Shown here in pieces: positions 3,332 through 42,710 of a DNA stretch of 64,000 nucleotides. The position numbers and the translations under genes were made by a program. This DNA comes from Bartonella sp. AU18XJBT (GTDB taxonomy: Bacteria > Pseudomonadota > Alphaproteobacteria > Rhizobiales > Rhizobiaceae), in the NCBI RefSeq assembly GCF_028618595.1, contig NZ_JAQITE010000001.1:1-64000 (forward strand), given 5' to 3'. Position 1 is the first letter of the stretch. Each line of letters opens with the position of its first letter. Under the pieces are notes generated by a model. The model was not told the DNA's origin. It made no database searches and worked only from the letters and a program-made list of their open reading frames with translations.

Positions 3332-4186
3332 TTAATCTTTCCATAATGCGTAAAAATGATGAAGCGGCCCTCGCCCTTTCCCTACTTTTAAAGCATTTGA
3401 GGCAGTTAAAGCGCCATGCAAATAATCTTTTGCTTGTTTAACAGCGCAATCCAAAGGTTGGGTAGGTAACAAAGCTGCAATAGCGGCAGAAATGGTACAC
3501 CCTGTCCCGTGATCATGAGTGGTTGAAAGACGAGAAGCTTCAAGTATAATAAGGTTTTCACGATCACAATAAAGATCTGGACTAGAATAATCGTAATTTT
3601 CTGTACTATTCTTGGTAAGCGTATTCAAATGTCCCCCTTTTAACAGAACTGCATGACACCCTAGCGCCAAGAATCGTGGAGCATATTGATACATAGTCTC
3701 TAAAGACCATTGCACTTCACCTCCCAATAACAGTGCAGCTTCAGGCAAATTTGGCGTGATCAAAGTTGACATCGGCACAAGAACATCACGCATAATTTCA
3801 ATTGCATCAGACTTTAAAAGAACATCAGCACTTTTTGCAACCATAACCGGATCAAAAACAATGGAACGCGCTTTATGATAAGTAAGACGTTCTGCAATAA
3901 CCTGTGCAATCTGAGCATTTGCAACCATACCAATTTTAACGGCATCAACATGGATATCCTCAAAAACAGAATCAATTTGATCTGCCACAAAAGAAGCATC
4001 TAATGCCTGAAAAGAACGCACACCCTGAGTATTTTGTGCAACAACAGCTGTAACCACACTCATACCATAAGTTTTCATAGCTGAAAAAACCTTCAAATCC
4101 GCCTGCATTCCAGCGCCACCAGAAGGATCTGTTCCCGCAATAGATAAAATCCGTGGAATAAAAAGTTTATCTTTTTGTAATTCCAT
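3332..4186 (-). CDS. thiD: Hydroxymethylpyrimidine/phosphomethylpyrimidine kinase
   Basis: ThiD phosphorylates HMP and HMP-phosphate to HMP-diphosphate, the pyrimidine half of thiamine diphosphate, in the cytosol. The 284-residue protein has the ribokinase-like signature GTDPSGGAGMQADLK near the N-terminus and DHGTGCTISAAIAALL near residue 230, the anion hole with its catalytic Asp/Gly-Cys region. Length matches the family. I chose the ATG at 4186, with AAGGA and GAGG upstream, over the in-frame TTG one codon earlier. It stands alone, divergent from plsC across 130 bp. No other thiamine gene and no obvious TPP riboswitch is visible next to it. Confidence 0.93.
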   Translation of the reverse strand: MELQKDKLFIPRILSIAGTDPSGGAGMQADLKVFSAMKTYGMSVVTAVVAQNTQGVRSFQALDASFVADQIDSVFEDIHVDAVKIGMVANAQIAQVIAERLTYHKARSIVFDPVMVAKSADVLLKSDAIEIMRDVLVPMSTLITPNLPEAALLLGGEVQWSLETMYQYAPRFLALGCHAVLLKGGHLNTLTKNSTENYDYSSPDLYCDRENLIILEASRLSTTHDHGTGCTISAAIAALLPTQPLDCAVKQAKDYLHGALTASNALKVGKGRGPLHHFYALWKD

Positions 4187-4315
4187 CAACCTCGTTCCTT
4201 CTGTTTTTAAATATCGGAAAATGAGTTACCGAAAAAATAGATGCTTGAAAAAACATAAAGAAGATGTTTTCTCATGTGAATTATATTATATACGAAGTCT
4301 TCTTATAGATATAAA

Positions 4316-12992: not shown

Positions 12993-13610
12993 ATGAAAAG
13001 CAATCGACCAAAACGCGTTCCCATAACACAGATAAAGAATCAGCTCTTATCGTCCCTTGATAAAAGAGCACTTGTCCTTGTTGGTCTTATGGGGGCAGGC
13101 AAATCAGTGATCGGAAAACGCGTCGCCACCATGCTTCGTTTACCCTTTTATGATTCTGACCAAGAAATTGAAAAAGCTGCACAAATGACAATCACTGAAC
13201 TCTTTGAAATTTATGGTGAATCCGAATTTCGTGCTCTTGAACAGCGTGTTATTCTAAACCTCATGAAAAAAAATCCCCTTGTTTTAGCAACAGGTGGTGG
13301 TGCCTACATAAATGAAAATATCCGAAAAGCCATTCACAAAAATGGTATATCCATATGGCTAAAGGTCGATCTTGATATCCTCATGCAACGTGTCTCAAAG
13401 CACCCAACACGCCCCCTGCTTCAAACAGCCAATCCTAAAGAAACCATGCAAAAACTCATGGAACAGCGTTATCCTATCTATGAAAAGGCAAACGTAACAA
13501 TTAACAGTCATAAAGAAAGCCGTCATACCGTAGCACAAAATGTTATACGATCTGTACAGCACTACCTATACACAGAAATTAACAATAGGGATAACCAGCA
13601 TGCAAATTAA
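12993..13610 (+). CDS. aroK: Shikimate kinase
   Basis: The enzyme phosphorylates shikimate to shikimate 3-phosphate with ATP in the chorismate pathway. From the ATG at 12993 the protein has 205 residues with Walker A GLMGAGKS (Gly31-Ser38), the shikimate-binding DSDQEIE and GGGAY segments, and the RPLL lid region. An upstream in-frame TTG at 12927 would add 22 residues not typical of the family. It overlaps the aroB start by 11 bp, an arrangement conserved in Rhizobiales, so the two are cotranscribed. It is divergent from xerD and its small partner gene. Confidence 0.92.
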
Positions 13611-14733
13611 AACAGTCACCGTTAAACTGGACAAACGCTGTTACGATATCATCATTGGTCCGGGTCTAATTGCACAATCTGCTTCACAGATTAAAAATGC
13701 TCTTAACAAAAAAGATCCTCATCCAACGCGCTTGGCACTTGTTACAGATACAAATGTTGCGTCCCTTCATTTGGAGATACTACAAGCAGAGTTAACAAAA
13801 AATAACATTCATACTGTCCCTATTATTGTAGAAGCAGGAGAACAATCAAAATCATTTTCAACCCTGCAAGTTGTCATCGATCAAATTCTTGCCGCGCGTT
13901 TAGAAAGAGGCGACTGTGTTATTGCTTTTGGCGGTGGTGTCATTGGCGATTTAGCAGGATTTGCTGCAAGTATAATCCGCCGTGGTATGAACTTCATTCA
14001 AATGCCCACAACGCTTCTTGCACAAATTGATTCCTCTGTCGGTGGAAAAACAGCCATCAACAGCCAATATGGCAAAAATCTTATTGGTGCTTTTTTTCAA
14101 CCGCAATGCGTTATTGCTGACACCTGTGTCCTTGATACCCTATCACTGCGCGAATTTCGTGCTGGTTACGCGGAAATGGTCAAATATGGACTCATTAACC
14201 AGCCTGATTTTTTTGAATGGCTTGAAAAAAATGGACAAGAAGTCTTTTCTAATGGCCCTATGCGAACAGAGGCCATTGTTCGCTCATGCCAATTTAAAGC
14301 CGCCATTGTAGCACGTGACGAACACGAAACAGGAGAACGCGCACTCTTAAATCTCGGCCATACATTCGGACACATGCTTGAAACAGCAACCGCTTATGAC
14401 TCAAAACGTTTAATTCATGGTGAAGCTGTATCAATTGGAATGATTCTAGCACATCAATTTTCTGCTCAACTAAATTTAATAAGCCCCGCACTTACACAAC
14501 GCATTGAAGCGCACTTCAAATCTATAGGATTGCCTACACAATTAAAGGATATCCCAGGGAACTTACCAGATGCTGAAACTTTAATGACTCTCATTGCCCA
14601 AGATAAAAAAGTCTCAAAAAACAATTTGACCTTCATCTTAACACGCGGACTTGGCCAATCATTTATTGCAAAAAATGTCTCTTCAGAAGCAGTTTTGACT
14701 TTTCTGGAACAAAAATTAGCAGAAATTCGTTAA
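13600..14733 (+). CDS. aroB: 3-dehydroquinate synthase
   Basis: AroB converts DAHP to 3-dehydroquinate using NAD+ and a divalent metal, the second step of the shikimate pathway. The ATG at 13600 gives 377 residues, the usual length. Visible motifs are [14 protein letters not shown] (NAD binding), the [15 protein letters not shown] substrate loop, and the metal ligands around E-x-x-K (AEMVKYGLI) and NLGHTFGH. The start overlaps the end of aroK. It is followed 60 bp later by the split tRNA gene. Confidence 0.95.
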
Positions 14734-14793
14734 TTCATATTGAATATAATTGATTCGTTTTTATACTTCTATTAAAGGAATAAGTATGATGAT

Positions 14794-15097
14794 GTCTGCG
14801 TAGCTCAGTAGGATAGAGCACAGGATTCCTAAAGAAATTGGGCATTTTGAGGAGAAATCCTCAAAGTGAATCTGCTCAAATTCGGGGAAAGCTTCATGGG
14901 AGACTATATGCCAATCCCGAGCCAAGTCTCTCTTCAAATGAGAGAAAGGTGTAGAGACTGAACGGGCAGCACCTAAAGAGCAAAAGCTTCAAGGTGAAGA
15001 GACAGTCCAGACCACAAACAGCCGTGAAAAGCTGGCGGTGAAAATCGAAGTGGTATGAATCCTGGGGTCGCAGGTTCGAATCCTGCCGTAGACACCA
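14794..15097 (+). tRNA. tRNA-Arg(CCU), interrupted by a group I intron
   Basis: Exon 1 (14794-14830) and exon 2 (15058-15097) join into a 77-nt cloverleaf. The acceptor GTCTGCG pairs with CGTAGAC (one G-U), the D arm is GCTC...GAGC, the anticodon stem CAGGA/TCCTG encloses the loop TTCCTAA with anticodon CCU, and the T arm is GCAGG-TTCGAAT-CCTGC. The discriminator A and the CCA end are encoded. The exon junction falls directly after U36 of the anticodon. tRNA-Arg(CCU) reads AGG codons. It cannot function without removal of the 227-nt insert. Confidence 0.93.
14831..15057 (+). ncRNA. Group I self-splicing intron in tRNA-Arg(CCU)
   Basis: The insert follows U36 and ends in G, as group I introns do. 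Helices seen by eye: P1, where exon CCU (14828-14830) pairs with GGG at 14840-14842, placing a U-G wobble at the 5' splice site; P2, a 6-bp GAAA-capped hairpin at 14848-14863; P5, TCGGG (14882-14886) with CCCGA (14916-14920); a P6-type TCTCTC/GAGAGA stem; P7, GACTG (14956-14960) with CAGTC (15003-15007); and P8, CACCT (14970-14974) with AGGTG (14992-14996). It has no ORF. Introns at this site are known in alphaproteobacteria such as Agrobacterium, and their ribozymes self-splice. Confidence 0.92.
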
Positions 15098-15150
15098 TCG
15101 TATCAATCAAATTATTCTTTGTGCGCAATATAGGAATATAGGGAAGCATC

Positions 15151-15546
15151 ATGAAAAAAACTTTACATATTTTAGGATTTTTCACCGCTTTAAGTTTATC
15201 ACTCTTCAGCTCAAACAATAGCTTAGCTGGTTCTTTAATCATTGAAGTACCAGACAATCCAGAGCCAAAAACAGAGACCATTACCTACCAGTGTGATACT
15301 GGAACAGGTAAAGAGCGCGTTGAGGCAGTCTATCTTAATGCTGACAATATTTCGTTGGTTGATTTCAAATGGAACGGTGATCGTGTCATTGCTGCTAATG
15401 TCATCGCGGCGACAGGAGCAAAATTTGCAGGAGCTCAGTATATCTGGTGGGAGAAGAACAAAGAAGTCATGCTTTATGACCTTGCTCAGGATCCAGAAGA
15501 AAAAAAACCTATCCTCTGTAAAGATGAGTCAACATTATTATTTTAA
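15151..15546 (+). CDS. Secreted MliC-like protein, copy 1
   Basis: A 131-residue exported protein with a signal peptide (residues 1-27) and a domain resembling the MliC/PliC lysozyme-inhibitor fold: TYQCDTG near the N-terminus, an AATGAKFAGAQYIWW segment near residue 95, and a C-terminal Cys (PILCKDE) that could pair with the first Cys. MliC proteins inhibit host C-type lysozyme in the periplasm; that role is inferred from pattern only. There is no lipobox Cys at the cleavage site, so it is probably soluble. It is the first of two tandem paralogues just downstream of the split tRNA gene. Confidence 0.65.
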   Translation: MKKTLHILGFFTALSLSLFSSNNSLAGSLIIEVPDNPEPKTETITYQCDTGTGKERVEAVYLNADNISLVDFKWNGDRVIAANVIAATGAKFAGAQYIWWEKNKEVMLYDLAQDPEEKKPILCKDESTLLF

Positions 15547-15563
15547 ATAACACGGGAAATATT

Positions 15564-15956
15564 ATGAAAAAAATTTCTTTTACTAAACAATTTTTCATTA
15601 CTTTAAGTGTGTTCCTCCTAGGTTCAATTAATGCATTAGCAAGTTCTTTAGTCATTGAAGTACCAGATGATCCAGAACCAACAACAGAGACCGTCTCCTA
15701 TCAATGCGTTATGGGAACAAGCAAAGAGCATGTTGAGGCAACTTATCATAATGCTGGCAATATTGCGCTTGTTGATTTAAAATGGAACGGTAAGCGCATC
15801 ATTGGTTCTAATGTAATTGCCGCTTCTGGAGGAAAATATGTAGGTGGTCAATACATTTGGTGGATAACTAAAAATGAAGCCATATTTTACGATCTTATTA
15901 ATGATCCAAAAGAAGAAAAGCCCATCCACTGTGTAGAAGAAAAAAGCACAGAATAA
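15564..15956 (+). CDS. Secreted MliC-like protein, copy 2
   Basis: This 130-residue paralogue begins 17 bp after copy 1 and is clearly a tandem duplicate: EVPDDPEPTTETVSYQC matches EVPDNPEPKTETITYQC, and AASGGKYVGGQYIWW matches the equivalent segment of copy 1. It has a signal peptide (about residues 1-27, ending ALAS) and the same two conserved Cys positions. The pair is probably cotranscribed. It converges on the 3' end of the pha operon. The lysozyme-inhibitor role is an inference from motif spacing. Confidence 0.65.
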   Translation: MKKISFTKQFFITLSVFLLGSINALASSLVIEVPDDPEPTTETVSYQCVMGTSKEHVEATYHNAGNIALVDLKWNGKRIIGSNVIAASGGKYVGGQYIWWITKNEAIFYDLINDPKEEKPIHCVEEKSTE

Positions 15957-41948: not shown

Positions 41949-42710
41949 ATGTTGATTGAACAGTTTATTTGTCGAGAAGATAATTTCGGTGTACTCATTC
42001 ATGATGAAAAAAGCGGTATGACAGCTGCAATAGATGCTCCTGAAAGTGAAGCAATTCATAACGCCTTAAAACGTCGTAACTGGACACTTCAGACTATTTT
42101 TGTAACTCATCATCATCACGATCATGTAGAAGCACTAGAAGAATTAAAACAGGTTTATAAGGCTGTCGTTATTGGACCAGAAGCAGAGAAAGAGAAGATT
42201 AATCATCTTGATCAAACACTTCAACCTGATGAAAATCTTTTCTTTGGCACGCACCCGCTTTTAGCTCTTTCAACACCTGGTCATACTTTAGGCGCATTAT
42301 CTTATTATCTTCCCGAGAGAGGTGTACTTTTTGCTGGAGATACACTTTTTTCACTTGGCTGTGGACGTCTTTTCGAAGGAACAGCTGCACAAATGTTAAA
42401 TTCTTTAAAAAAACTTCGTGAACTTCCTGATGAAACACTTCTCTATTGTGGACATGAGTATACAAAAAACAATGCTTTTTTTGCGCTAACAATTGATCCA
42501 CATAATAAAAAGCTCCACCAAAGAATAGAGGAAGTTTTTTTATTGCGTGCAGGAAATGCTATGGCTTTACCTGTCACTTTAGGACAAGAAAAAACAACAA
42601 ATCCCTTTCTTCGTTGGGATAATCCTGCAATCAGAGAGAACCTCTCAATGACCAATGCTACAGATGAAGAAGTTTTTGCTGAAATTCGAAAAAGAAAGGA
42701 TAAATTTTAA
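41949..42710 (+). CDS. gloB: Hydroxyacylglutathione hydrolase (glyoxalase II)
   Basis: This metallo-beta-lactamase-fold enzyme hydrolyses S-lactoylglutathione to lactate and glutathione in methylglyoxal detoxification. The 253-residue protein shows THHHHDHVEAL, the THxHxDH metal site, then STPGHTLGALSYY, FAGDTLFSLGCGRLFEG and YCGHEYTKNNAFF with further metal ligands. Its C-terminal codons are partly duplicated at about 43290-43355, just before a tandem copy of the next gene. Confidence 0.95.
   Translation: MLIEQFICREDNFGVLIHDEKSGMTAAIDAPESEAIHNALKRRNWTLQTIFVTHHHHDHVEALEELKQVYKAVVIGPEAEKEKINHLDQTLQPDENLFFGTHPLLALSTPGHTLGALSYYLPERGVLFAGDTLFSLGCGRLFEGTAAQMLNSLKKLRELPDETLLYCGHEYTKNNAFFALTIDPHNKKLHQRIEEVFLLRAGNAMALPVTLGQEKTTNPFLRWDNPAIRENLSMTNATDEEVFAEIRKRKDKF

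Follow-up and report, generated by a model that had tools for sequence, protein, structure and literature searches.

The first 64,000 nucleotides of contig NZ_JAQITE010000001.1 of Bartonella sp. AU18XJBT, referred to here as the window, hold the two halves of a tRNA-Arg(CCU) gene separated by 227 nt. We wondered what the interrupting segment is, whether it is removed from the precursor, and how it came to lie there. ARAGORN with default settings found no tRNA in the window; in intron mode it returned tRNA-Arg(cct) with an intron of 227 nt, which closes an annotation gap, the split gene having been missed by the default tRNA caller. We established the anatomy of the gene, the covariation within its intron and its distribution. 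Our overall reading, to which we give a probability of about 97%, is that a splicing group I ribozyme splits tRNA-Arg(CCU), that it is the orthologue of BbgpI of B. bacilliformis, and that it is most likely ancestral to the genus.

A group I intron directly after the anticodon

The features of the locus are collected in Table 1. The intron starts with AAAGAAATTGGG and ends with G, and its insertion point lies directly 3' of the anticodon of tRNA-Arg(CCU), as is characteristic of the family. When the whole window was compared with Rfam by cmscan, RF00028 matched positions 14818-15021 with 66.3 bits (cut-off 50, E 1.3e-14) and was the sole Rfam family above its curated cut-off in the window. The longest ORF that lies fully within the intron has 38 amino acids, so there is no homing endonuclease ORF, and the length of 227 nt leaves no room for an endonuclease. 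A promoter scan found 2 against 1.5 expected, no better than chance.

Table 1. Features of the split tRNA-Arg(CCU) locus, in positions of the window
Feature	Span	Paired strands or detail	Strand	Basis
aroB (3-dehydroquinate synthase), upstream neighbour	13540..14733		+	TIGR01357, 358 bits
5' exon of tRNA-Arg(CCU)	14794..14830	anticodon CCT at its end	+	ARAGORN intron mode; acceptor stem 7/7 pairs with 3' exon
Group I intron	14831..15057	227 nt	+	RF00028, 66.3 bits; pair counts, 79 copies
Internal guide	14836..14842	AATTGGG	+	read from sequence; invariant columns in 79-row alignment
P2	14843..14868	14843-14853 with 14858-14868 (11 pairs); GAAA cap 14854-14857	+	
P3	14872..14877 (5' strand)	3' strand 14964-14969	+	100% of cells paired
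P4	14882..14920	14882-14886 with 14916-14920; encloses P5	+	pair counts
P5		14891-14892 with 14910-14911	+	pair counts
P6	14922..14949	14922-14923 with 14948-14949	+	
P6a		14927-14932 with 14940-14945	+	
P7	14956..15007	14956-14960 with 15003-15007; crosses P3	+	5/5 pairs invariant, 78 distinct rows
P8	14970..14996	14970-14974 with 14992-14996	+	
P9	within 15011..15054	15011-15015 with 15050-15054	+	pair counts
P9a		15019-15022 with 15031-15034	+	pair counts
P9b		15036-15039 with 15044-15047; GAAA loop	+	pair counts
3' exon of tRNA-Arg(CCU)	15058..15097	with encoded CCA	+	ARAGORN intron mode; BLAST of joined exons

The surroundings of the intron were compared across 88 separate loci, 71 from Bartonella and 17 from other members of the family. 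The exon context CAGGATTCCT/AATCCTG, the intron-terminal G and the encoded CCA are identical in all of them. Every 5' exon ends in CCT (88/88), and ATTGGG lies inside the first 25 nt of the intron in 87/88. An earlier, sequence-only reading of this DNA had described a minimal, ORF-less group I intron directly after the anticodon, flanked by exons that pair fully once 14831-15057 is removed, with a U.G pair at the 5' splice site and a terminal G. All of this agrees with our results, and the covariance-model search that it had proposed returned a group I match, as given above.

That reading had also stated that the site is known from Agrobacterium, so that the type is not new. The precedent is closer still: the same intron at the same site has been published, with splicing, for the sister species B. 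bacilliformis (PMC7717549). There, the tRNA-Arg(CCU) intron BbgpI, located at c42404-42711, is described as self-splicing in vitro and spliced in vivo; it had first drawn attention as a small RNA that is highly expressed under multiple conditions (PMC7717549). In one of our Bartonella genomes (G401) the split gene lies at 42403-42709 on the minus strand, within two bases of these coordinates, and because of this fit to the published locus we took the G401 copy as BbgpI. The window intron is 87.9% identical to it (227 vs 230 nt). The two introns thus share genus, tRNA, insertion site and similar size, whereas splicing was tested in B. bacilliformis and the window intron is known here from its sequence.

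The same tRNA and the same insertion site are also found for the tRNA-Arg(CCU) intron of Agrobacterium tumefaciens and its alphaproteobacterial relatives. The A. tumefaciens intron was reportedly described by Reinhold-Hurek and Shub in 1992, and Paquin et al. are said to have argued in 1999 for horizontal transfer of alphaproteobacterial tRNA-Arg introns. The IC3 introns of Azoarcus tRNA-Ile and cyanobacterial tRNA-Leu(UAA) are likewise small group I introns of tRNA genes and resemble it in their core, but they occupy other host tRNAs and other insertion points. By this resemblance, the window intron is putatively a member of subgroup IC3.

Conserved and compensated secondary structure

To describe the fold, we wrote a structure on the window intron sequence and counted its pairs in an alignment of 79 rows, comprising 71 Bartonella copies (one per genome) and eight from other genera of the family. 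Pairing holds in 95.6% of cells across the 78 distinct rows, and 27 of the 55 pairs show a change on both sides (240 cells of this kind in all). Of 500 shuffles, none reached the observed value on any of five measures. When the partners were slid by 1-3 columns, the paired cells fell to 28.7-45.8%, a control in which the window's own row favours the structure because the structure was written on that row.

P3, P4 and P7 are paired in 100% of cells in the 78 distinct rows, giving the P3-P9 core with the P3/P7 pseudoknot that is expected of the family. P7 is presumably the guanosine-binding helix, as in other group I introns. P4 and P7 are invariant and therefore lend no covariation support; P2, P6a, P8 and P9a vary with compensation. 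Changes on both sides occur in 10 of the 11 pairs of P2 (87.9% of cells paired), all six of P6a (92.3%) and three of the five of P8 (92.6%), three of the P2 pairs having been added by eye to the eight of the structure written on the window sequence. Some pairs fail, among them two in P2 (in 32 and 35 of the 78 rows), one in P8 (29) and two in P6a (13 each). These counts bear out the GAAA-capped P2, the P7 and the P8 that had been proposed from the sequence. P5, proposed along with them, is present, but P5 itself amounts to 2 bp only in the present counting, with a variable extension.

The guide GGG pairs with the exon CCU to form P1, with U.G at the splice site, and its ATT can pair with AAT of the 3' exon (P10). 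RNAalifold, run unaided, returned 62 pairs, 33 of them with a change on both sides. For the window intron alone, the predicted folding energy is -68.7 kcal/mol (z -2.93), lower than in any of 200 shuffles. Folding that admits no pseudoknot places TGGGC of the guide region opposite GTCCA, close to P7, and this predicted pairing would compete with P1 and P7.

Present in all Bartonella genomes searched, patchy in the family

The intron is present at the same site in 71 of the 71 Bartonella genomes searched, 70 by ARAGORN on RF00028 match loci and one (G396) by exon search. RF00028 alone was rejected as a test of presence: the weak match in G396 (21.5 bits) is false, with no tRNA by ARAGORN and no similarity to the window exons or flanks, and the true split gene of this genome lies at 452485-452793, where it was confirmed by ARAGORN and the locus scored 53 bits in a further Rfam scan. 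Intron lengths range from 220 to 278 nt.

In 151 genomes of the family, the RF00028 matches numbered 17, which ARAGORN, applied to both strands, assigned to tRNA-Arg(CCU) in ten cases (including the window and G091) and to tRNA-Leu(UAA) in seven. For a wider survey, the 3' splice junction pattern was searched with at most one mismatch in 394 sampled genomes from 109 genera. It gave 48 matches in 46 genomes and 23 genera, with all eight sampled Bartonella among the 46; the reversed pattern had no match among the rows listed. By ARAGORN, 38 of the 48 are tRNA-Arg(CCU) with an intron, five have an intron of 215-235 nt but carry the label tRNA-His(atg), likely a register error, and five gave no tRNA. 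Counted by genome, the split gene is confirmed in 38 of 394, likely in five, and without a tRNA in three. Genus g7 was confirmed in 4/4 sampled genomes, and genus g18 was matched by the junction in 7/7 and confirmed in five. At the 30 best-matching loci fetched from whole-gene matches in the 151 family genomes, tRNA-Arg(CCU) is uninterrupted in every case. The intron is patchy in the family and uninterrupted genes are common. What the survey adds is an intron in every Bartonella genome searched that is patchy between genera; alphaproteobacterial tRNA-Arg(CCU) introns have been called sporadic, in contrast to the 71/71 seen here.

Descent at one locus or horizontal transfer

The patchiness across the 394 genomes and the uninterrupted genes at all 30 loci favour horizontal transfer of the intron, or of the entire split gene, into the lineage, whereas its presence in all 71 Bartonella genomes speaks against it. 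The gene neighbourhood and the intron trees bear on the same question. Within the flanks examined at the Bartonella loci (about 600 to 1500 bases), aroB was found in 67 of 71, and the downstream neighbour in three of the other four. A first intron tree of 93 rows (71 Bartonella, 17 family and 5 Leu outgroup copies, with repeat loci left out) joined 5/5 aroB-adjacent relatives to Bartonella and 0/12 others. In a larger tree of 107 rows, made by adding 14 copies, including L038, seven of the eight aroB-adjacent relatives group with the full set of 71 Bartonella copies in a single clade (100/96), which also takes in one of the 23 copies for which no neighbouring aroB was found. This grouping argues against transfer; the change from 5/5 against 0/12 to 7/8 against 1/23 led us to lower the inheritance reading and raise transfer.

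Two copies in particular favour transfer. The split tRNA-Arg(CCU) of G083 (L263) lies beside aroB, and its intron is far from those of Bartonella and of the other aroB-adjacent copies; it could represent an ancient lineage, have replaced an earlier copy or stem from an independent insertion. A tree constrained to keep every aroB-adjacent copy in one group is worse by 28.97 log units (p-AU 0.0795), which makes such a clade disfavoured, not rejected. The other is the long-branch intron of G093, which falls inside Bartonella in both trees. Well-supported branches of the larger tree exclude Bartonella as one clade; in the first tree, Bartonella as one clade is not rejected (p-AU 0.766). Weighing the gene neighbourhood and the intron tree together, we incline, exceptions notwithstanding, to descent at a single locus and so to old inheritance with some loss or replacement, and we consider horizontal transfer unlikely. 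The intron of the window was most likely inherited from the Bartonella ancestor.

A matched empty site was found in a 1.9 Mb relative (G072; L167 1433-1572), in which an uninterrupted tRNA-Arg(CCU) lies beside aroB with a spacing of 47 bases, vs 60 in the window. This matched gene makes gain versus loss of the intron testable. A protein tree of aroB, built to ask whether the G072 gene reflects a loss of the intron, has 39 rows (of 52 loci, 49 gave a match and 10 of these proved too short) and an open backbone that favours neither answer.

Several further observations concern these loci. G093 (L011) is a 1.2 Mb relative that has tRNA exons identical to those of the window and carries the intron; its aroB is 43-45% identical only and sits on a very long branch. 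The aroB of G091, another Bartonella genome (G091:C3:140511-141550), was matched as two overlapping pieces, the second with two internal TGA, reflecting a frameshift either in the gene or in the assembly. Downstream of the tRNA gene, the window holds two adjacent MliC-type lysozyme-inhibitor genes (PF09864) on the plus strand, at 15151-15546 and 15564-15956. MliC matches occur in 57 of the 71 Bartonella loci and in none of the other 14, one of which is cut by a contig end; 13 of these 14 form one clade in the first intron tree, and L124 branches first.

Probable splicing and the decoding of AGG

In the proposed mechanism, the group I ribozyme would act on its own precursor; it separates anticodon position 36 from base 37 in the one tRNA-Arg(CCU) gene that was found. 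The precursor would fold into P3-P9, with the guide GGG paired to the exon CCU. A guanosine supplied from outside and held at P7 would attack after the anticodon, and the freed 5' exon would then attack after the intron-terminal G, joining the tRNA exons. We assume these chemical steps for the window intron from what is known of the family, and by analogy the window copy itself would splice. Nothing in this account changes the view of how group I introns work.

Given that a second, intact gene could supply the tRNA, as the sequence-only reading had recognized, we looked for one in the draft genome (2.39 Mb, 161 contigs). ARAGORN assigned 36 of its 37 tRNA matches, and none of the 36 is a second tRNA-Arg(CCU); the remaining Arg genes among them carry UCU (a single gene covered by two overlapping loci), CCG and ACG. 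In a BLAST search with the joined exons that covered the window genome (G000) and three one-contig Bartonella genomes, only the two gene halves were near-identical, and there was otherwise no cross-junction match above 86% identity. The absence of a second CCU gene is not final, because tRNA-Ile(GAU) and tRNA-Ala(UGC) are also absent from the tRNA list of the draft, which is therefore incomplete in tRNA genes. Since no second CCU gene was found, the maturation of tRNA-Arg(CCU) probably depends on splicing.

Wobble may allow tRNA-Arg(UCU) to read AGG as well, in which case a failure to splice might carry a cost without being lethal. AGG accounts for 25 of the 16,532 codons in 46 mechanically chosen ORFs of the window and is present in 20 of these ORFs. 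The earlier claim that the AGG-reading tRNA depends on splicing therefore stands as far as tRNA-Arg(CCU) has no second gene, but the reading of AGG may be shared with tRNA-Arg(UCU). Its description of the genome as reduced applies only in comparison with larger relatives, since 2.39 Mb lies in the upper part of the genus range of 1.4-2.9 Mb.

The intron is kept in every Bartonella genome searched while many relatives have uninterrupted genes, and splicing or the excised RNA may on that account have gained a use, such as limiting the supply of AGG-reading tRNA, for which the temperature or the guanosine level met in the vector and the host may be candidate cues. We see a slim chance of this, and simple retention explains the same data. 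The idea that the intron is a decayed, non-splicing relic, with AGG read by tRNA-Arg(UCU) alone, draws on the presence of the tRNA-Arg(UCU) gene and the rarity of AGG but is almost certainly wrong, given that P4 and P7 are invariant in the 78 distinct rows and other changes are largely compensatory, that the exon context is intact in 88/88 loci, and that the B. bacilliformis orthologue splices (PMC7717549).

Other group I introns encountered in the searches

In a distant search with window positions 14600-15300, a relative of the intron was found in 1,271 of 72,556 plasmid records, always at 60-80% identity and, among the 20 matches listed, over more than 30% of the query. Two records were opened, L045 (NC_004464.2, pCTX-M3, about 3960-4260) and L046. 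In both, the match has small hypothetical genes on one side and, on the other, a gene for an AAA-family ATPase that adjoins aac(3)-II; we take this ATPase gene to be tmrB. L045 reads as a complete tRNA-Leu(UAA) with the intron after U34 and with complementary acceptor halves (GCGGACG/CGTCCGC), and ARAGORN, in its own register, labels it tRNA-Stop(tta). Against RF00028 it scored 36.8 bits, below the cut-off of 50, with an E of 7.1e-8 in a 501-base search.

In E. coli, the L045 stretch was found in 635 of 5,426 complete genomes, in 624 of them over at least 80% of its length, and the places number 588 on plasmids and 81 on chromosomes. Among the 12 E. coli matches listed, none has an annotated feature at the stretch; the plasmid table has no RNA genes, so its silence is uninformative. 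An exact 42-base piece of L045 occurs in five contigs of the species-genome collection, four from Acinetobacter and one from Kluyvera, and thus points to no clear chromosomal donor. We found no literature joining tmrB with a group I intron. The tRNA-Leu(UAA) intron gene may be a trace of the chromosome from which aac(3)-II came.

One order-level relative has two strong group I matches 1.5 kb apart, with 89.2 and 82.2 bits (G315:C36:10660-12405, L018), and ARAGORN found no split tRNA at the locus fetched. For the order-level loci L019-L044, ARAGORN puts the RF00028 introns in putative tRNA-Phe, -Ser, -Thr and -Leu genes, with L038 as the sole Arg(CCU) host.
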